The translations under genes and the position numbers were made by a program. Under the pieces are notes generated by a model, which saw only the letters and a list, made by a program, of their open reading frames with translations, ran no database searches and had not been told where the DNA came from. A stretch of DNA of 64,000 nucleotides from Telluria mixta (GTDB taxonomy: Bacteria; Pseudomonadota; Gammaproteobacteria; Burkholderiales; Burkholderiaceae_D), in NCBI RefSeq assembly GCF_029223865.1, contig NZ_CP119520.1, forward strand, positions 2,542,001 through 2,606,000, in the 5' to 3' direction. Shown in pieces: positions 12,270-45,405 of the stretch (positions within the stretch are counted from its first letter, which is position 1; each line of letters opens with the position of its first letter).

Positions 12270-12289
12270 TACTGTTCATATATACAGTA
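12270..12289 (+). promoter_or_regulatory. LexA (SOS) box
   Basis: A perfect CTGT-N8-ACAG palindrome extended to TACTGT...ACAGTA, with an all-AT centre apart from one C. It sits 11 bases before the ATG at 12301 and overlaps a possible -10 element, TATACT at 12268-12273, so LexA bound there would block transcription of the radical SAM-UdgX operon. Confidence 0.88.
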
Positions 12290-12300
12290 TTTATCCCACG

Positions 12301-13530
12301 ATGGAACTCAAAGACAAGCTCGAGATCCTGGCCGATGCAGCCAAGTACGACGCGTCCTGCGCCAGCAGCGGCGCGCCCAGGCGCGATTCCGTCGACAAGG
12401 ACGGGCTGGGGGCGACGAACGGCATGGGCATCTGCCACAGCTATACGCCGGACGGGCGCTGCGTGTCGCTGCTCAAGATCCTGCTGACGAACTTCTGCGT
12501 CTACGATTGCCAGTACTGCGTGAACCGGCGCACGTCGAACGTGCCGCGCGCCCGTTTTTCCGTCGACGAGGTCGTGAAGCTCACGCGCGATTTTTACCTG
12601 CGCAACTACATCGACGGCCTGTTCCTCAGCTCCGGCATCATCCAGTCGAGCGACTACACGATGGAGCAACTGGTGGAGGTCGCGCGCCGCCTGCGCGAAG
12701 AGCACCAGTTCCGCGGCTATATCCATCTGAAAACGATCCCGGATGCCGATCCGCGCCTCATCGAGCTGGCCGGCCGCTATGCCGACCGCCTGTCGGTGAA
12801 CATCGAGCTGCCCACGCAGGACAGCGTGACGAAGCTCGCGCCCGAAAAGAACGTCCACACGATCAAGCTGGCGATGGGTTCCATCCGCACGAAGCTGGAC
12901 GAAAAGGACGACCACCCCAAGGCGCCCACGTTCGCGCCGGCGGGGCAGAGCACGCAGATGATCGTCGGCGCGGATGCCAGCGACGACCAGACGATCCTGA
13001 ATACCGCGCAGACGCTGTACGGCAGCTACAAGCTGAAACGCGTGTATTACTCGGCCTTCAGCCCGATCCCGCAAAGCCCGTCCAGCGTGCCGTCCGCGCC
13101 GCCGCCGCTGCTGCGCGAGCACCGGCTGTATCAAGCCGACTTCCTGTTGCGCGGCTATGGCTTCACGGCGAAGGAGCTGATGCCGCAGGCCGGCAACCTG
13201 GCGCTGGACATCGACCCCAAGCTGGGCTGGGCGCTCGCGAACCGCGACCACTTCCCGCTCGACCTGAACCGCGCGGACGAGTCCATGATCGCGCGCGTGC
13301 CGGGTATCGGACTGCGCACCGCGAAGCGCCTGATCGATCTGCGGCGGCTGCGGCGCATCCGCTGGGAAGACCTGTCGCGCCTGCGCTGCAGCCTGAAAAA
13401 GCTGGCGCCGTTCGTGATCACGGCGGACTACAGGCCGGCGCAGGGCGCCGCATCGACCGACCTGCTGCGGCGTAACCTGGCCGACGCCCCGCAGCAGATG
13501 AACCTGTGGCCGGAACTGCAGGCGGCGTGA
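12301..13530 (+). CDS. Radical SAM protein of the putative DNA modification/repair family, with C-terminal helix-hairpin-helix
   Basis: 409 residues. The iron-sulfur motif CX3CX2C is Cys66, Cys70 and Cys73 in NFCVYDCQYC. Near the C-terminus LDLNRADESMIARVPGIGLRTAK is a helix-hairpin-helix, a DNA-binding fold. This matches the family described as putative DNA modification/repair radical SAM proteins, which typically sit beside a uracil-DNA-glycosylase-like gene. The chemistry and substrate are unknown; spore photoproduct lyase is an example of a radical SAM enzyme that repairs DNA. Its stop overlaps the next gene's start (TGATG), so the two are translationally coupled. A LexA box immediately upstream predicts induction by DNA damage. 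Confidence 0.9.
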   Translation: MELKDKLEILADAAKYDASCASSGAPRRDSVDKDGLGATNGMGICHSYTPDGRCVSLLKILLTNFCVYDCQYCVNRRTSNVPRARFSVDEVVKLTRDFYLRNYIDGLFLSSGIIQSSDYTMEQLVEVARRLREEHQFRGYIHLKTIPDADPRLIELAGRYADRLSVNIELPTQDSVTKLAPEKNVHTIKLAMGSIRTKLDEKDDHPKAPTFAPAGQSTQMIVGADASDDQTILNTAQTLYGSYKLKRVYYSAFSPIPQSPSSVPSAPPPLLREHRLYQADFLLRGYGFTAKELMPQAGNLALDIDPKLGWALANRDHFPLDLNRADESMIARVPGIGLRTAKRLIDLRRLRRIRWEDLSRLRCSLKKLAPFVITADYRPAQGAASTDLLRRNLADAPQQMNLWPELQAA

Positions 13531-15029
13531 TGACTGCGGATGCGCTGGTCCGGACAGGGCAGCCGGTGCTGGTCGAGACGTTCGCGGAGTGGCGCGAAGC
13601 GGCGCGCGAACTGCTCGTCCACGGCATACCGCCCGACCAGGTGACGTGGGGCGCGCCGCACATGGGCGACCTGCTGGCGGGCGGCGACCTGTTCACGGGT
13701 GCGCCGGCCGCCGCCGGGGCACCGCATAATCCTTCCATACCGCCGACCGAGCCTTTGCACCCTGCGCCGCACATCCCGCGTTCGCTGATGGAGATGCTGC
13801 AGTCGGCCGCCTGCTGCCGCGTGCCGGACCGCTGGGCTTTCCTGTACCGCGTGATCTGGCGCTGGCAGCAGGGCGAGCACGACGTGCAGTCGCCGGCCGA
13901 CGAGGATGGCGCACGGCTGCACGCGATGGTAAAGGCGGTCCACCGCGAGGAACACGACATGCATGCCTACATCCGCTTCCGCGAGCGCCCGGAAGAAGCC
14001 GGCCCGCCGCGCTTCGTCGCCTGGTACGAGCCGCGCCACGACGTGCTGCCCCAGGTCGCCGAGCATTTTATTTCCCGCATGGGCAAGGTCAGCTGGATGA
14101 TCGCCACACCGGAGGCGAGCGTCCTGTGGGATGGCCAGACGCTGCACAATACCGGACCACTCGTGCGCGATGCGGCCGACCTCGAAGACACTGGCGAGGC
14201 CCTGTGGCTGACGTATTACCGCAGCGTGTTCAACCCCGCCCGCCTGAACACGAACGTGATGCACCAGCATATCCAATCGGACCGGTGGAAGAACCTGCCG
14301 GAGGCGAAGATCGTGCCGCACATGGTCAGCGAAGCGGCGCTGGGCGCACGCAAGGTGGGCCAGTACGAAGCCGTCGGCCAGCGCAAGGGCACGACGATCC
14401 CGATCGCCCCCGAGGACGCCCAGCCGGAACGCCAGCAGCCGTCGAAACTGGACGAATGCCGGCGCTGCGAGCTGTGGCAGTTCGCCACCCAGGCCGTCGG
14501 CGGCGAGGGACCAAGGCGCGCGAAGATCATGTTCGTCGGCGAGCAGCCGGGCGACCAGGAAGATCTCGCCGGACAACCGTTCGTCGGCCCGGCCGGCAAG
14601 CTGCTGGACCGCGTGTGCGAGGCGGCCGGCGTCGACCGCGACACGATCTACGTCACCAACGCCGTCAAGCATTTCAAATGGGAGCCGCGCGGCAAGCGCC
14701 GCCTGCACAAGACGCCGGTCCAGCGCGAGATCGAGGCCTGCCACTACTGGCTCGACAAGGAGCTGGCGAGCGTCAAGCCGACCGTCATCGTGGCCCTGGG
14801 CGCCACCGCGCTCAAATCCGTGCTGCGCACGGCCAACGTCACGCTCAAGAATTCCCTCGGCAAACCGCTGCGCCACGAGGGGCACTGGGTCGTCACGACG
14901 TACCACCCGTCGTACGTGCTGCGCGTGCCGGGCGAGGAGGCGAAGCGCGAGGCGTTCAACACGATGGTCGAGGGCCTGAAACTGGCGCACGAGCTCCTGG
15001 AGCGGCCGGTCGACGTACCCGACGCGTGA
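13530..15029 (+). CDS. DUF4130-UdgX fusion: uracil-DNA glycosylase-superfamily protein
   Basis: 499 residues. The N-terminal half (about 80-260) is a DUF4130 domain, with LMEMLQSAACCRVPDRWAFLYR and a FVAWYEPRHDVLP stretch. The C-terminal half is a family 4/5-like uracil-DNA glycosylase of the UdgX type: a CRRCELW cysteine pair, motif I VGEQPGDQED (about 336-345), the UdgX-specific GKRRLHKTP loop with His393, and TTYHPSYVLR. UdgX proteins form a covalent adduct with uracil-containing DNA through that loop histidine rather than simply excising the base. The ATG at 13530 overlaps the radical SAM stop. The fusion and pairing suggest one repair or tolerance pathway; the function of DUF4130 is not known. 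Confidence 0.92.
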   Translation: MTADALVRTGQPVLVETFAEWREAARELLVHGIPPDQVTWGAPHMGDLLAGGDLFTGAPAAAGAPHNPSIPPTEPLHPAPHIPRSLMEMLQSAACCRVPDRWAFLYRVIWRWQQGEHDVQSPADEDGARLHAMVKAVHREEHDMHAYIRFRERPEEAGPPRFVAWYEPRHDVLPQVAEHFISRMGKVSWMIATPEASVLWDGQTLHNTGPLVRDAADLEDTGEALWLTYYRSVFNPARLNTNVMHQHIQSDRWKNLPEAKIVPHMVSEAALGARKVGQYEAVGQRKGTTIPIAPEDAQPERQQPSKLDECRRCELWQFATQAVGGEGPRRAKIMFVGEQPGDQEDLAGQPFVGPAGKLLDRVCEAAGVDRDTIYVTNAVKHFKWEPRGKRRLHKTPVQREIEACHYWLDKELASVKPTVIVALGATALKSVLRTANVTLKNSLGKPLRHEGHWVVTTYHPSYVLRVPGEEAKREAFNTMVEGLKLAHELLERPVDVPDA

Positions 15030-15143
15030 ATATTGCTGTTGCGACATATGCATGTCAAAGTTGTAACACTTCGTTGCCCGATAGGCTAAGCTCATCCGTG
15101 GCGCTAATCTTTTGCGCACACAACAACAACGATGGGATGCCCG

Positions 15144-16175
15144 ATGAGCAAACGATATGCATGTGCGCTTTACCTGAGTTTCCTGACCCTGCCGGTTCTG
15201 GCCCAGACCACGCCCCAGCCTGAACCCGCACCCACAGCCCAGCCCGTTACCGTCGAGGCCGCCGATGCCGTCCCCGCCACCGTCGTCGTCGAAGGCCGCC
15301 GGCCCGGTCCCGGCGTCTGGAAAGTCTCGAAGGGCGACCACGTGATGTGGGTGTTCGGCCTCTACGCCCCGCTGCCGCAGAAGATGGAATGGGATGCGTC
15401 GCGCGTCGAACGTCTCGTGGCCAGGTCGCAGGAAGTGCTGCTGCCGCCCGGCGCCAACGTCGAGGTCGGGTTCTTCCGGGGTCTGACTTTGCTGCCGTCC
15501 ATGATCGGCATGGAAAAGAATCCGGACGGCGCCCGGCTGCAGGACTTGGTGCCGGCCGACGCGTATGCGCACTGGCAAGTCCTGAAAGACAAATACATCG
15601 GCAAGGACGACGGCATCGAGCGCGACCGGCCGGTCTTCGCGGCCGACAAACTGCTTCACGCGGGCCTGAAGAAGAACGGCCTCGCGCCCAACAACGACGT
15701 GCGCGGCGAAATCGGCAAGATCGCCAGCCAGAACAAGGTCAAGCTGACGCCCACCATCCTGCAGCTCGAACTCGACGATCCGCGCCGCACGCTGAAGGAA
15801 TTCAAGAAGACGCAGATGGCGGACCTGAGCTGCTTCACGAAGACGCTGGACCGCCTGGACACCGACATCGAGACGATGCGGGTCCGTGCCAACGCGTGGG
15901 CCAACGGCAACATCGCCGACATTGCCCGCCTGGACTTTGCCGCACGCGACGAGGCATGCGGCGATGCACTGCTGAACAGCGACCTGGCGAAGACGACGCC
16001 GGCCTTCCAGAACCTGCGCGAACGCATCCGTGCCAACTGGATGAAGATGGCCGAAAAATCGCTGGCCAATAACACGTCGACGTTCGCGCTGCTGATGATG
16101 AAGGACCTCGTCGGTCCGGCGAATTACCTGGCCGACCTGCAGGCGAAAGGCTACACGGTCGAGAGCCCAAGATAA
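15144..16175 (+). CDS. GumN/TraB-like secreted protein, first of tandem pair
   Basis: 343 residues from the ATG at 15144, preferred over 15132 because a GGGA lies at a suitable distance and the signal peptide MSKRYACALYLSFLTLPVLA then starts cleanly. The mature protein is periplasmic or secreted. It resembles the GumN/TraB family in overall layout, but the usual GTxH histidine motif is absent: the equivalent stretch reads VMWVFGLYAPLPQKMEWD. It is about half identical to the next gene by eye, with shared VPATVVVEGRRPGPGVWKVS, DLxCFTKTLD and RVRANAWANG, so the pair arose by tandem duplication. Function unknown. Confidence 0.8.
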   Translation: MSKRYACALYLSFLTLPVLAQTTPQPEPAPTAQPVTVEAADAVPATVVVEGRRPGPGVWKVSKGDHVMWVFGLYAPLPQKMEWDASRVERLVARSQEVLLPPGANVEVGFFRGLTLLPSMIGMEKNPDGARLQDLVPADAYAHWQVLKDKYIGKDDGIERDRPVFAADKLLHAGLKKNGLAPNNDVRGEIGKIASQNKVKLTPTILQLELDDPRRTLKEFKKTQMADLSCFTKTLDRLDTDIETMRVRANAWANGNIADIARLDFAARDEACGDALLNSDLAKTTPAFQNLRERIRANWMKMAEKSLANNTSTFALLMMKDLVGPANYLADLQAKGYTVESPR

Positions 16176-16191
16176 CAAGGACATCACGCCC

Positions 16192-17193
16192 ATGAGGAAG
16201 AGAACCAACCGATACGTGCTCTGGCTGGGCCTGCTGGCCCTGCCGGCGTTCGCGCAGACCCTGGAGCAGGCCGTCGACCCGAACGCCATCCCCGCGACCG
16301 TCGTCGTCGAAGGCCGCCGACCCGGCCCGGGCGTGTGGAAGGTGTCGAAGGGAACGCACGTGATGTGGGTCTTCGGGACATATGCGCCGCTGCCGCGGAA
16401 GATGGAGTGGGATGCGTCGCGCGTGGAGCGTCTCGTGGCGAAGTCACAGGAAGTCCTGATGCCGCCCGTCGCGAAAGCCCATATCGGTTTCTTCAGCGGA
16501 TTGACGGCGTTGCCGAGCCTCATCGGCATCAAGCGCAATCCGGACAATGCGGTCCTGCACGACGTCGTCCCGGCCGACGTCTACGCGCACTGGACGGTAT
16601 TGAAGGCCAAATACATCGGCGACGACGACGGCATCGAGCATTATCGTCCCGTCTTCGCGGGCGAGGAGTTGCTGCTCGCCGGCCTCAAGAAAAGCGGCCT
16701 CTCCTATGGCAACGAGGTGCTCGGCAAGATCGAGGACATCGCGAAAAAGAACAAGGTCAACATGACCGACTCGGGCTACGACGTGATGGTCGACGACCCC
16801 CGCAAGCTCGTGCGGGACTTCAAGAATTCGCAGGTGGACGACCTCGTCTGCTTCACGAAGACGCTCGACACCCTGGACACCGATCTCGAAACGATGCGCG
16901 TGCGCGCGAATGCCTGGGCCAACGGCGACATCGCCGAGATCCGCGGGCTGAATTTCGCCGAGCGCCGCGATGCGTGCCTGGACGCCGTCATGAACAGCTC
17001 GATCGCGAAGGATGCCGCGGCCTTGCGCCAGGTGCGCCAGCGTCTGCGCACGTCCTGGCTGAAGGCGGCGGAAAATGCGCTGGCCAGCAACGCCACCACC
17101 TTCGCCGTGCTGGAGATCCAGGACATCGTCGGCCCGACGAGCTACCTCGCCGGGCTGCAGGCCAGGGGTTACACGGTCGAAAGTCCCAGATGA
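16192..17193 (+). CDS. GumN/TraB-like secreted protein, second of tandem pair
   Basis: 333 residues, the paralogue of the preceding gene and 16 bases downstream of it, so probably co-transcribed. Signal peptide MRKRTNRYVLWLGLLALPAFA. It shares long blocks with its neighbour but has a shorter linker after the signal. The family's catalytic-type histidine is again replaced (VFGTYAPLPRKMEWD). Both copies keep two or three cysteines at matching places (DLVCFTKTLD, RRDACLDA), compatible with a disulfide in the periplasm. It ends one base before the converging serine acetyltransferase gene. Confidence 0.8.
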   Translation: MRKRTNRYVLWLGLLALPAFAQTLEQAVDPNAIPATVVVEGRRPGPGVWKVSKGTHVMWVFGTYAPLPRKMEWDASRVERLVAKSQEVLMPPVAKAHIGFFSGLTALPSLIGIKRNPDNAVLHDVVPADVYAHWTVLKAKYIGDDDGIEHYRPVFAGEELLLAGLKKSGLSYGNEVLGKIEDIAKKNKVNMTDSGYDVMVDDPRKLVRDFKNSQVDDLVCFTKTLDTLDTDLETMRVRANAWANGDIAEIRGLNFAERRDACLDAVMNSSIAKDAAALRQVRQRLRTSWLKAAENALASNATTFAVLEIQDIVGPTSYLAGLQARGYTVESPR

Positions 17194-42707: not shown

Positions 42708-42727
42708 TACTGTGCGTTTGTACAGTA
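42708..42727 (+). promoter_or_regulatory. LexA (SOS) box upstream of nadK-recN
   Basis: A perfect CTGT-N8-ACAG palindrome extended to TACTGT...ACAGTA. It overlaps TATACT (42706-42711), which pairs with TTGCCG (42682-42687) at an 18-base spacing, so LexA would cover the -10 element. Confidence 0.9.
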
Positions 42728-42807
42728 TTTGCTGAGTTGCGATAGTGCAGAAGCCGGGCGAATCGGTTAATCTTCTGTCTCCCTATCACCTGCTGCCGAG
42801 AGTCGTA

Positions 42808-43710
42808 ATGTCCGTGACGCCTGAACCGCAACAAACCATCGCGCTCGTCGTACGGCACAACACGGCCGGGATCGACGAGCACGTGCAGGCCATCGTCGAC
42901 TTCCTGCAGGGGGCCGGCTACCGCGTCGTGTTCGAGCAGGAAACGGCGGGGCACGTGAAGGTCGCCGGCGTGGACGCCATGACGGTGGACGAGATCGGCG
43001 CGCACTGCGGCACCGCCATCGTCGTCGGCGGCGACGGCACGATGCTCGGCATCGCCCGCCAGCTGGCGCGCTACCGCGTGCCGCTCATCGGCATCAACCA
43101 GGGCCGCCTGGGCTTCATGACCGACATCCCCATCGACCGCATGCTGCCCGCGCTGGGCGAGATCCTCAGCGGCAAGGCCAAGGCCGAGGAGCGCTCGCTG
43201 CTGGAAGCGCGCGTCGTGCGCGACGGCGTCGAGATCCACTGCTCCGTCGCCGTCAACGACGTCGTCGTCGCGCGCGGCACGGGTGCCGGCATGGCCGAGC
43301 TGAAGGTGACGGTGGACGGCAAGTTCATGTACAACCAGCGTTCGGACGGCCTGATCGTCTCGACGCCTACCGGCTCCACGGCGTACGCGCTGTCGGCCGG
43401 CGGTCCGCTGCTGCATCCCACGCTGGCCGGCATCGTGCTGGTGCCGATCGCGCCGCACGCGCTGTCCAACCGCCCGATCGTCGTGCCGAACACGAGCGAC
43501 ATCGTCGTCGAGATCATCAACGGCCGCGACATCAGCGTGAACTTCGACATGCAGACGTTCACGAGCCTGCAGCACGGCGACCAGATCATGATCTCGCGCT
43601 CGCCCAACACCATCACCTTCCTGCATCCGGAAGGGTGGAGCTACTACCACACCCTGCGCGAGAAGCTGCACTGGAACGAATATCCGTCCGGTGACGGCAA
43701 GCTCAAGTAA
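42808..43710 (+). CDS. nadK: NAD kinase
   Basis: 300 residues. Phosphorylates NAD to NADP with ATP. Marks: [38 protein letters not shown] and [19 protein letters not shown]. The ATG at 42808 is chosen because the family start ([15 protein letters not shown]) fits; a GTG at 42745 would add 21 residues. It is followed by recN after about 30 bases and so lies in a LexA-controlled unit, a common arrangement in this group. Confidence 0.95.
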
Positions 43711-43740
43711 ATCAGCATCCATCAGGAGATGAGTTTCTTC

Positions 43741-45405
43741 ATGTTGCGCACACTGACCATCCGCGACTTCGTCATCGTCGACACGATCGAGCTCGAGTTC
43801 TCGAACGGCTTCACGGTGCTCACCGGCGAGACCGGCGCCGGCAAGTCGATCCTGATCGACGCGCTTCAGCTCGCGCTTGGCGGCCGCGGTGAGGCAAGCA
43901 TGGTGCGCGAAGGCGCGGCCAAGGCCGACATCAGCGCCGACTTCGCGCTGACCCAGGCCGCGAGCATCTGGCTGGAACAGAACGAGTTCGAAACCGACGA
44001 AGGCGGCGCGCTGCTGCGCCGCGTGATCGACAACGCCGGCCGCTCCAAGTCCTATATCAACGGCATCGCCGCCACCGCGAGCCAGTTGCGCGAGCTGGGC
44101 GAACTGCTCGTCGACATCCACGGCCAGCACGCGCACCAGTCGCTGTTGAAACTCGACGCCCAGCGCGCGCTGCTCGACAACCAGGTCGCCGTGCGCGATC
44201 CGGGCGCAAGCGCGCAGGTGCAGGAAGTCGCGCATGCCTATAAGGCGTGGAAGGCGCTGGCGCGCCAGCGCGAGGAATTCGAGACGAACGCGAAGAACGT
44301 GCTGCTGGAACGCGAGCGTCTCGAGTGGCAGGTCGGCGAGCTGGATAAACTCGCGGTGAAGCCGGGCGAGTGGGCGGAGATCACGAATGAACACAGCCGC
44401 CTGTCGCATGCCGCGAGCCTGATCGAAGGGGCGCAGGAAGCATTGGAAGCGCTGTCGGAATCGGAGCAACCGATCCTGTCGCAGCTGTCGTCGCTGAACC
44501 AGAAGCTGTCGAAGCTGGCCGGCGTCGACGCGGGCCTGCAGGCCGTGCTCGATTGCATGGAGCCGGCGCGCATCCAGTTGCAGGAAGCCGTGTACGCGCT
44601 GAACACGTATGTCGACAAGGTCGAGCTCGATCCGGACCGCTTGTCCCAAGTGGACGCGCGCATGGACGCCATCCACAGCACGGCCCGCAAATTCCGCGTG
44701 ACGCCGGAAGAACTGCCGGAAGAACACGCGACCCTGAAGGCCAAGCTGCAGCAGCTGGCCGACGCGAGCGACGTGGACGGCCTGCGCAAGCAGGAAGAGA
44801 AGGCGAAGGCGGTCTACCTGGCGGCCGCGCAAAAGCTGTCCGCGACGCGCGCACAGGCGGCCCAGCGTTTGTCGTCGCAGGTGTCGGAAGCGATGCAGGA
44901 ACTGTCGATGAGCGGGGGCCGCTTTGTCGTCGCGCTGAACCCGTGCGAACCGGCCGTGTACGGCTGCGAGCAGGTCGAGTTCCTCGTGGCCGGCCACGCC
45001 GGCGTGGCGCCGCGGCCGCTGGCCAAGGTGGCGTCGGGCGGCGAACTGGCGCGCATCTCGCTGGCGATCTCCGTCATCACGGCGAACGCGACCACGGTGC
45101 CGACCTTGATCTTCGACGAGGTCGACACCGGTATCGGCGGCGGCGTGGCGGAAGTCGTCGGCCGTCTGTTGAAGCGCCTGGGGCAGAGCCGGCAAGTGCT
45201 GTGCGTCACGCACCTGCCGCAGGTCGCGAGCCAGGCGAACCAGCACTTCCAGGTGGCCAAGGGCACGACGGATGGCGGCAAGACCGTGTCGCGCATCGAC
45301 GTCCTCGACAACAAGGCCCGCGTGGAAGAGGTGGCGCGCATGTTGGGCGGCATCGAGATCACCGAAACGACGCGCAAGCATGCGCGCGAACTGCTGGCTT
45401 CCTAA
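43741..45405 (+). CDS. recN: DNA repair protein RecN
   Basis: 554 residues. SMC-like ATPase acting at double-strand breaks. Walker A GETGAGKSILIDALQLALGG split at about 29-48; coiled-coil arms between about 150 and 370; signature ASGGELARISLA and Walker B LIFDEVDTGIGG near 440-470. The ATG at 43741 (MLRTLTIRDFVIVD) fits the family; the ATG at 43729 sits on the AGGAG itself. The LexA box before nadK should give damage induction. Confidence 0.95.
   Translation: MLRTLTIRDFVIVDTIELEFSNGFTVLTGETGAGKSILIDALQLALGGRGEASMVREGAAKADISADFALTQAASIWLEQNEFETDEGGALLRRVIDNAGRSKSYINGIAATASQLRELGELLVDIHGQHAHQSLLKLDAQRALLDNQVAVRDPGASAQVQEVAHAYKAWKALARQREEFETNAKNVLLERERLEWQVGELDKLAVKPGEWAEITNEHSRLSHAASLIEGAQEALEALSESEQPILSQLSSLNQKLSKLAGVDAGLQAVLDCMEPARIQLQEAVYALNTYVDKVELDPDRLSQVDARMDAIHSTARKFRVTPEELPEEHATLKAKLQQLADASDVDGLRKQEEKAKAVYLAAAQKLSATRAQAAQRLSSQVSEAMQELSMSGGRFVVALNPCEPAVYGCEQVEFLVAGHAGVAPRPLAKVASGGELARISLAISVITANATTVPTLIFDEVDTGIGGGVAEVVGRLLKRLGQSRQVLCVTHLPQVASQANQHFQVAKGTTDGGKTVSRIDVLDNKARVEEVARMLGGIEITETTRKHARELLAS

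Follow-up and report, generated by a model that had tools for sequence, protein, structure and literature searches.

A candidate SOS operon of Telluria mixta for a putative radical SAM DNA-repair enzyme with a sliding-clamp-binding-like tail

The window analysed here is a 64,000-nucleotide stretch of the Telluria mixta genome, a single contig of 7.44 Mb (RefSeq assembly GCF_029223865.1, contig NZ_CP119520.1, positions 2,542,001 to 2,606,000 of the forward strand), and contains a two-gene operon that codes for a radical S-adenosylmethionine (SAM) protein and a DUF4130-UdgX fusion protein and is preceded by a LexA box (Table 1). Based on sequence motifs and their conservation, we propose, with about even confidence, that this is an SOS operon for a radical DNA-repair enzyme tethered to the replication clamp. 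The family, its three-part make-up and, in other phyla, its SOS control are known already; what is new is a set of testable clues to function, and the two strong ones, a clamp-like C-terminal tail and three extra cysteines in the radical SAM protein, lay outside an earlier reading of this DNA made from its sequence alone. If a radical enzyme does ride the clamp in the SOS response, it would represent an overlooked branch of repair, namely radical direct reversal at forks.

The three family models concerned, TIGR03916 (rSAM_link_UDG, which we take to be the same family as COG4277), TIGR03915 (DUF4130) and TIGR03914 (UdgX), all match above their curated cut-offs and in the same order as in the COG4277-COG1573 operons described earlier; the window version differs in its CTGTN8ACAG box. 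The TGA stop codon of the radical SAM gene (13528-13530) overlaps by one base the ATG that begins at 13530, suggestive of translational coupling. Of the roughly 8000 sequences scored in the homologue searches, the analysis covers the top 120, and among those listed are Massilia proteins (P0014 and P0015) with 93-94% identity to the radical SAM protein. The published passages that deal with the COG1573-COG4277 operons, as far as they go, make no mention of a clamp-like tail, extra cysteines or an optional UdgX. Searches of the open-access literature, outside which most subscription papers fall, found no paper that assigns a function to TIGR03916 or TIGR03915, which agrees with the sequence-only reading in knowing of no demonstrated function; likewise, they found nothing linking UdgX with radical SAM enzymes, or a radical SAM enzyme with the sliding clamp and LexA.

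Examination of the region upstream of the operon reveals a 20-base palindrome, TACTGT-TCATATAT-ACAGTA, separated by 11 bases from the ATG at 12301. It had been described as a perfect LexA box 11 bases before the gene; all 12 arm bases and the distance agree with that description, but the eight-base spacer departs from the Escherichia coli consensus at two positions. Short or loose forms of the motif were rejected as genome-wide evidence, given that they are equally frequent in reversed controls (36 CTGTN8ACAG sites against 44; 47 ACTGTN8ACAGT sites with at most one mismatch against 61). The window itself holds two CTGTN8ACAG sites, a number reached in 5 of 100 shuffles. Since such loose matches prove nothing, the case for a LexA box rests on its longer exact arms and on conservation. 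The exact form ACTGTN8ACAGT occurs at 11 genome sites against 2.4 expected from the base composition of the window, and TACTGTN8ACAGTA at six, including the window box, against 0.07 expected from base composition. The other ten exact ACTGTN8ACAGT sites include those before lexA, dinB, imuA, nadK-recN and a PA0069-type radical SAM gene, as well as one about 460 bp before priA and one before a tyrosine recombinase gene; two have no likely SOS gene tied to them. The genome codes for a canonical LexA (PF01726 helix-turn-helix match at 3762981-3763175 of the genome, minus strand), which has the same kind of box before its own gene (3763202-3763219).

Three of the other full-arm boxes deserve mention in their own right: 1) a second one in the window (42709-42726) precedes nadK (42745-43710) and recN (43729-45405; RecN model, 580 bits) and marks another SOS operon; 2) one lies before the second radical SAM gene, which belongs to the PA0069 family (NF033668; genome position about 4005510); 3) one lies 140 bp before a histone-H1-like gene (genome position about 2849483; 69 bits against a cut-off of 80), an unusual SOS candidate.

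Within the genus, the radical SAM gene is present in 57 of 61 genomes, and the footprint was read in 29 of the 56 other positive genomes, namely those among the 30 best-scoring loci. The exact CTGTN8ACAG box is found in all 29 of these loci, with variable spacers and a nearly fixed distance to the start codon. Beyond the genus we used the best 80 of at least 591 confirmed loci, a set that leans towards the window protein and was grouped by hand from record titles into 27 beta/gammaproteobacterial, 44 alphaproteobacterial, 5 verrucomicrobial and 3 xanthomonad loci (79 in all; L179, titled only 'Pseudomonadota', was left ungrouped). The beta/gammaproteobacterial motif is present exactly in 17/27 loci and with at most one mismatch in 26/27 (shuffles 0.3% and 5%), and the alphaproteobacterial GTTC/GAAC-N7 repeats are present exactly in 41/44 (mononucleotide shuffles 0.2%). 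The motif that we take to be the verrucomicrobial one is seen exactly in one of five loci and with at most one mismatch in three (shuffles 0.0% for exact matches). Reversed upstream regions, cut at the start codon, gave matches with at most one mismatch in 1/27 beta/gammaproteobacterial and 4/44 alphaproteobacterial loci. In a further set of 38 Pseudomonadota loci, 35 have an exact box of either type, one has a box with one mismatch and two have none; the GTTC/GAAC-N7 repeats are also exact in 27/27 loci from other classes of the phylum, a count that has no shuffle control. Because the box arms persist as spacers vary, and because Alphaproteobacteria have their own LexA motif at the same place, the operon is very likely under SOS control, as predicted by the sequence-only reading from the single box; the occurrence of quite different LexA motifs in front of a single kind of operon carries more weight than a lone box could. 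Consistent with these observations, the available text of one study places the COG1573-COG4277 operon under SOS control in Bacteroidetes and cites the same for Verrucomicrobia and Alphaproteobacteria (PMC8565304). LexA control has also been inferred for CAC3343-CAC3344, a radical SAM protein and an unknown protein of Clostridium acetobutylicum, in the part of another source that we could consult (PMC3828012), and a gene annotated as a TIGR03916-type radical SAM protein is reported as upregulated on severe desiccation in Acinetobacter sp. Tol 5 (PMC13130816, in part).

The composition of the operon was assessed in 249 Pseudomonadota genomes with the family models at curated cut-offs. Roughly one genome in six carries TIGR03916 (39; 46 with any match) and TIGR03915 (41; 42 with any match), and UdgX scores above cut-off in 38. 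A UdgX match of any strength is seen in 192 genomes; judged by score, most of these are other family-4-like uracil-DNA glycosylases (UDGs). Every one of the 39 radical SAM genomes also carries DUF4130, always on the contig of the radical SAM gene, next to it in most cases and never more than about 3 kb away. UdgX is found above cut-off in 29 of these 39 and is absent genome-wide from ten, two of which (G099 and G183) show a weaker match (E about 1e-31 to 1e-32) that is probably another family-4-like UDG. Nine of the 38 UdgX genomes have no radical SAM gene: two of them keep DUF4130, one keeps a fragment and six have none above cut-off. The 80-locus set presents the same picture, with DUF4130 downstream in 77 loci (the remaining three are close to contig ends), UdgX in 56 (fused to DUF4130 in 55 of them) and DUF4130 but no UdgX match in the stretch examined in 21 (in L124 and L134 a contig end is close by). 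The radical SAM protein and DUF4130 form the core of the system; UdgX is an add-on module that can be acquired or lost, and as an obligatory part it was rejected on this co-occurrence. The sequence-only reading left DUF4130, the constant partner, undiscussed.

Regulation follows the same division. In Pseudomonas and Salinicola, operons without UdgX still have a LexA box, either exact or with one mismatch. UdgX genes located away from the radical SAM gene number eight, counting a second copy in genome G043; seven of them lack an exact box, and SOS control therefore appears to go with the radical SAM-DUF4130 pair; one such gene (L200) has a one-mismatch box, and a decayed operon remnant with a DUF4130 stump before UdgX (L198) retains an exact one. 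In three loci (L195, L196 and L198; the first two read by eye) UdgX is preceded by no more than a short remnant of the DUF4130 C-terminus, a picture of operon decay that spares UdgX.

Conservation in the radical SAM protein was read from an alignment (A3) of 36 rows, comprising the window protein and 35 of the 80 loci, and from a second set of 123 sequences that is rich in Moraxellaceae and Flavobacteriia. The cysteines of the CX3CX2C motif (Cys66, Cys70 and Cys73) are invariant in A3. Given that three extra cysteines, Cys20, Cys45 and Cys54, are conserved as strongly as these, they suggest a second iron-sulfur cluster. The protein further contains a helix-hairpin-helix motif (HhH), as the sequence-only reading had noted: although under the Pfam cut-off here (20.9 bits against 27), it aligns to RuvA with an E-value of 0.004, and HHH_3 is above cut-off in two relatives (L188 and L190). 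That RuvA alignment over the HhH part was also the best hit in a sequence search of solved structures, which revealed no close relative of the protein. The predicted model (mean predicted local distance difference test, pLDDT, 81.9) is closest in fold to lipoyl synthase, HydE and biotin synthase, the latter two within about one Z unit; identity to lipoyl synthase is 11%, and the window protein differs from it in adding the HhH and the clamp-like tail. NCBIfam at an E-value of 0.001 lists only TIGR03916, and Pfam at an E-value of 1 lists generic Radical_SAM, HhH and Fer4_12 models, with no spore photoproduct lyase (SPL) family among them; SPL models are presumably present in both libraries. The window protein is like SplB in being a radical SAM enzyme tied to DNA and in its likely SOS control, a regulation reported for spore photoproduct lyase/SplB (COG1533) in several groups, as far as the cited parts of the sources go (PMC3323433, PMC8565304). 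It differs from SplB in the family models listed for it, and the PA0069-family radical SAM protein with its own LexA box in this genome is a separate protein.

The C-terminus of the radical SAM protein carries the second clue. Proteins that dock on the bacterial sliding clamp commonly use a peptide of the QL[SD]LF type, of which the QMNLW of the window protein is a variant; its relatives show QLSLF, QLALF and QLDLF. The glutamine, Q399, is present in all 36 rows of A3. In the 80-locus set, a loose form of the motif is found in 72 tails and a strict form in 54, as against 4.7% and 0.6% of shuffled tails, and in the second set the motif is present in 120 of 123 sequences. A third pattern is found in 46 of 56 loci with UdgX and in 16 of 21 without it. 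The same kind of tail extends to relatives in Gemmatimonadota (QLSLW) and Bacillota (QLSLF). The organism's own translesion polymerase Pol IV (DinB) ends in VEQLSLFDERATH and carries near its C-terminus QLSLF, the very pentapeptide of many TIGR03916 proteins; the likeness lies in the pentapeptide, and the family models of the two proteins differ. Together these observations suggest that the tail resembles a sliding-clamp-binding peptide, making it a putative clamp-docking site, and searches of the open-access literature found no report of such a tail on a radical SAM protein.

Outside Pseudomonadota, TIGR03916 relatives are found in Verrucomicrobiota, in Bacteroidota (by source names), in Bacillota (above cut-off) and in Gemmatimonadota (divergent and below cut-off). 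The gemmatimonadal relative (L188), encoded on plasmid 1 of Gemmatirosa, scores 303 bits against 343.5, leaves the first 51 model positions unaligned, has the HhH and QLSLW in its C-terminal part, and has no DUF4130 match nearby. Ten phage-collection records also carry a radical SAM relative, eight of them unannotated faecal contigs; a role in anti-phage defence was considered and dropped, as no PADLOC model matched.

In light of the above-described features, we propose the following course of events. DNA damage would lead to LexA cleavage and, to judge from the conserved site, derepression of the operon along with lexA, dinB, imuA and nadK-recN. From its motifs, the TIGR03916 protein would then use its CX3CX2C cluster and SAM to generate a 5'-deoxyadenosyl radical, with Cys20, Cys45 and Cys54 probably holding a second cluster and the HhH gripping DNA, and the Q-L/M-x-L-F/W tail might dock on the beta sliding clamp and so bring the enzyme to stalled forks beside the translesion polymerases. 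There the SAM radical would repair or remodel a base, most likely by reversing a base lesion directly, as spore photoproduct lyase does. DUF4130, as the constant partner, could provide lesion recognition or a second catalytic step. Finally, the fused UdgX might covalently cap uracil-derived abasic sites at forks, a role suggested by the chemistry of the Mycobacterium smegmatis protein, and the core would work independently of it. In its most specific form, which we advance only tentatively and with less than even confidence, TIGR03916 would to our knowledge be the second radical SAM family that acts directly on DNA and the first to do so at the replication fork, being LexA-controlled, tied to the clamp and equipped with two clusters, reversing a base lesion together with DUF4130 and with UdgX as an optional cap for abasic sites.

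Several observations weigh against the proposed clamp-tethered repair enzyme and its regulation. On the side of regulation, the genome shows no excess of loose box matches; of the two boxless loci in the set of 38, one (L062), whose protein is 96% identical to one of Psychrobacter, keeps the pair with no box found; and in the other (L078) and three xanthomonad loci (L125, L136 and L137) the palindrome GTCTCAN5TGAGAC stands 39 bp before the radical SAM start instead of a LexA box, such that the pair is kept under another palindrome. Regarding the second cluster, the pLDDT falls below 50 at residues 20-44 and 49-52, with Cys20 inside and Cys45 and Cys54 bordering these segments, and the cluster is not visible in the model; the CX4CX5C auxiliary motif of lipoyl synthase is not matched by the C-X24-C-X8-C spacing of the window protein; and the Gemmatirosa relative shows no alignment across the part from Cys20 to Cys45. 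Eight of the 80 tails depart from the loose pattern (four QLGF(G/A)F, one QIELPF and three QLELN/QAELD with an extension), an Acinetobacter baumannii relative ends in QLSLGF, and one of 29 same-genus copies (L228) lacks the motif; the clamp consensus itself is background knowledge, and short C-terminal peptides may recur for other reasons. Moreover, the relatives counted share descent, such that the counts are not independent trials, and a role in modification or as a mutagenesis accessory would look alike at the level of sequence.

Of the xanthomonad palindrome, the Xanthomonas dyei genome contains six sites with at most one mismatch, with none in the reversed control. A DEAD/DEAH-box helicase gene begins close to the other exact site, and mraZ follows 190 bp after one of the sites; possibly the palindrome belongs to a separate DNA-damage regulator.

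The best-surviving alternative, which we nevertheless regard as unlikely, places UdgX at the centre of a base-excision system in which uracil in DNA is removed or capped during the SOS response and the radical SAM protein merely assists. This corresponds to a published proposal for the COG1573-COG4277 operon, described in the available part of the text as a putative UDG base-excision system against misincorporation by SOS polymerases (PMC8565304). The UdgX motifs of the window protein are indeed intact. Its residues 306-488 align to solved UdgX structures (PDB 6AJO, 8IIE and others), presumably all of the M. smegmatis protein, with an E-value of 1.5e-51; GEQPG, KRR(L/I)H and HPS are common to both, and the window UdgX differs in being fused behind DUF4130 and placed under a LexA box. 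The sequence-only reading had correctly recognized GEQPG and KRRLH, and HPSYVLR can be added. GEQPG is conserved in 84 of 85 UdgX relatives and the loop histidine in at least 81, with K(R/K)RxH in 63; among 19 of the 22 that do not fit this pattern, reading by eye shows R-(L/I)-H retained in 18 and a different loop in L094. The bond that had been ascribed to this histidine needs correcting from uracil to sugar: in studied UdgX the histidine becomes linked to the deoxyribose C1' once uracil has been released, according to the part of the source seen (PMC10359453). The words SOS and operon were not found in two UdgX papers searched by term. The presence of UdgX in most radical SAM genomes would also fit a UdgX-centred system, but the ten genomes and 21 loci that have the pair without it, the retention of the box by UdgX-less operons and the scarcity of exact boxes before separate UdgX genes all favour the radical SAM-DUF4130 core.

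Somewhat less probable again is an accessory role in SOS mutagenesis, with ImuA-ImuB-DnaE2 or Pol IV, in which a template base would be processed or modified for translesion bypass and not repaired. An ImuB-like gene (query with the Pfam IMS domain) lies nearby in nine loci, one of them without a radical SAM gene and the three assigned ones alphaproteobacterial, and in two genomes of genus g71 (L100 and L101) a DUF4130-UdgX gene without a radical SAM gene and an ImuA-like gene (scores of 35 and 38 bits against a family cut-off of 150) point away from each other and share one LexA-type box, GTTCATGATATGTTC. The same box precedes the operon in Bradyrhizobium (L126 and L129). The DinB-like tail would suit this role, and DUF4130, for whose model (pLDDT 81.8) there was no confident fold match, the RecJ/DHHA1 fold being one considered, has been called a predicted mutagenesis-related enzyme in the cited part of one source (PMC3765255). 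Against this, nine are few among 120 loci, and the window operon is not near a mutasome, imuA being about 1 Mb away.

We consider improbable the path suggested by the sequence-only reading, in which a site is first tagged or shielded by UdgX, the mark then directing radical chemistry by the radical SAM enzyme. The fusion, its near-constancy among the loci with UdgX and the translational coupling in the window speak for such a path, but either half survives without the other, given that both UdgX-less operons and UdgX-only genomes exist; six of the 38 UdgX genomes are above cut-off for UdgX alone of the three families, and two of these (L195 and L196) show the stump. What stands of that reading is SOS control and the link to DNA repair, the latter indicated by context, the HhH, the UdgX motifs and the clamp-like tail; a UdgX that is the necessary half and marks the site for the radical enzyme lacks support. 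A damage-induced radical SAM modification enzyme or defence protein outside DNA repair is very improbable, since the lack of a close solved relative leaves room for it but the fusion to UdgX, the HhH, the clamp-like tail and the presence of LexA-type boxes across several classes point to DNA and no PADLOC defence model matched.

Table 1. Features of the radical SAM-DUF4130-UdgX operon (positions in the window; a dot marks a feature without strand)
Feature	Position	Strand	Evidence
LexA box TACTGTTCATATATACAGTA, full 6+6 arms	12270..12289	.	Sequence; conservation in the genus
Radical SAM gene, TIGR03916 (rSAM_link_UDG), 409 aa	12301..13530	+	541 bits against a cut-off of 343.5
Cys20 codon (extra conserved cysteine 1 of 3)	12358..12360	+	36/36 in A3; 121/123 in the second set
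Codons of Cys45-His46 to Cys54, further extra cysteines	12433..12462	+	36/36 in A3; 123/123 each in the second set
CX3CX2C radical SAM cluster motif (Cys66, Cys70, Cys73)	12496..12519	+	CVYDCQYC, residues 66-73
Helix-hairpin-helix (VPGIGLRTAKRLI)	13297..13335	+	Pfam HHH_3/HHH_5 under cut-off; RuvA alignment
QMNLW, sliding-clamp-binding-like pentapeptide at the C-terminus	13495..13509	+	Sequence and conservation
TGATG stop/start overlap	13528..13532	+	Sequence; putative translational coupling
DUF4130-UdgX fusion gene, 499 aa	13530..15029	+	TIGR03915 and TIGR03914, both above cut-offs
DUF4130 (TIGR03915) domain	13575..14306	+	185 bits against a cut-off of 112.25
UdgX domain, TIGR03914	14394..14984	+	260 bits against a cut-off of 189.95
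UdgX motif A, GEQPG	14538..14552	+	Alignment to UdgX structures
UdgX R-loop KRRLH with nucleophilic histidine	14694..14708	+	Alignment to UdgX structures
UdgX motif B, HPSYVLR	14904..14924	+	Alignment to UdgX structures

In five loci (L075, L077, L080, L179 and L180, the last from the sphingomonad Stakelama) a hemerythrin-like gene appears to be inserted between the radical SAM and DUF4130 genes. Pfam Hemerythrin is above cut-off in the three tested (L075, L179 and L180), and L080, not separately listed, is the weakest case. The encoded protein might shield an oxygen-sensitive cluster; as the arrangement is not general, it was dropped as a part of the mechanism. Downstream of the window operon lie two tandem genes of the TraB/PrgY/gumN family (15132-17193), whose products of 347 and 333 aa are 61% identical and represent a duplication.

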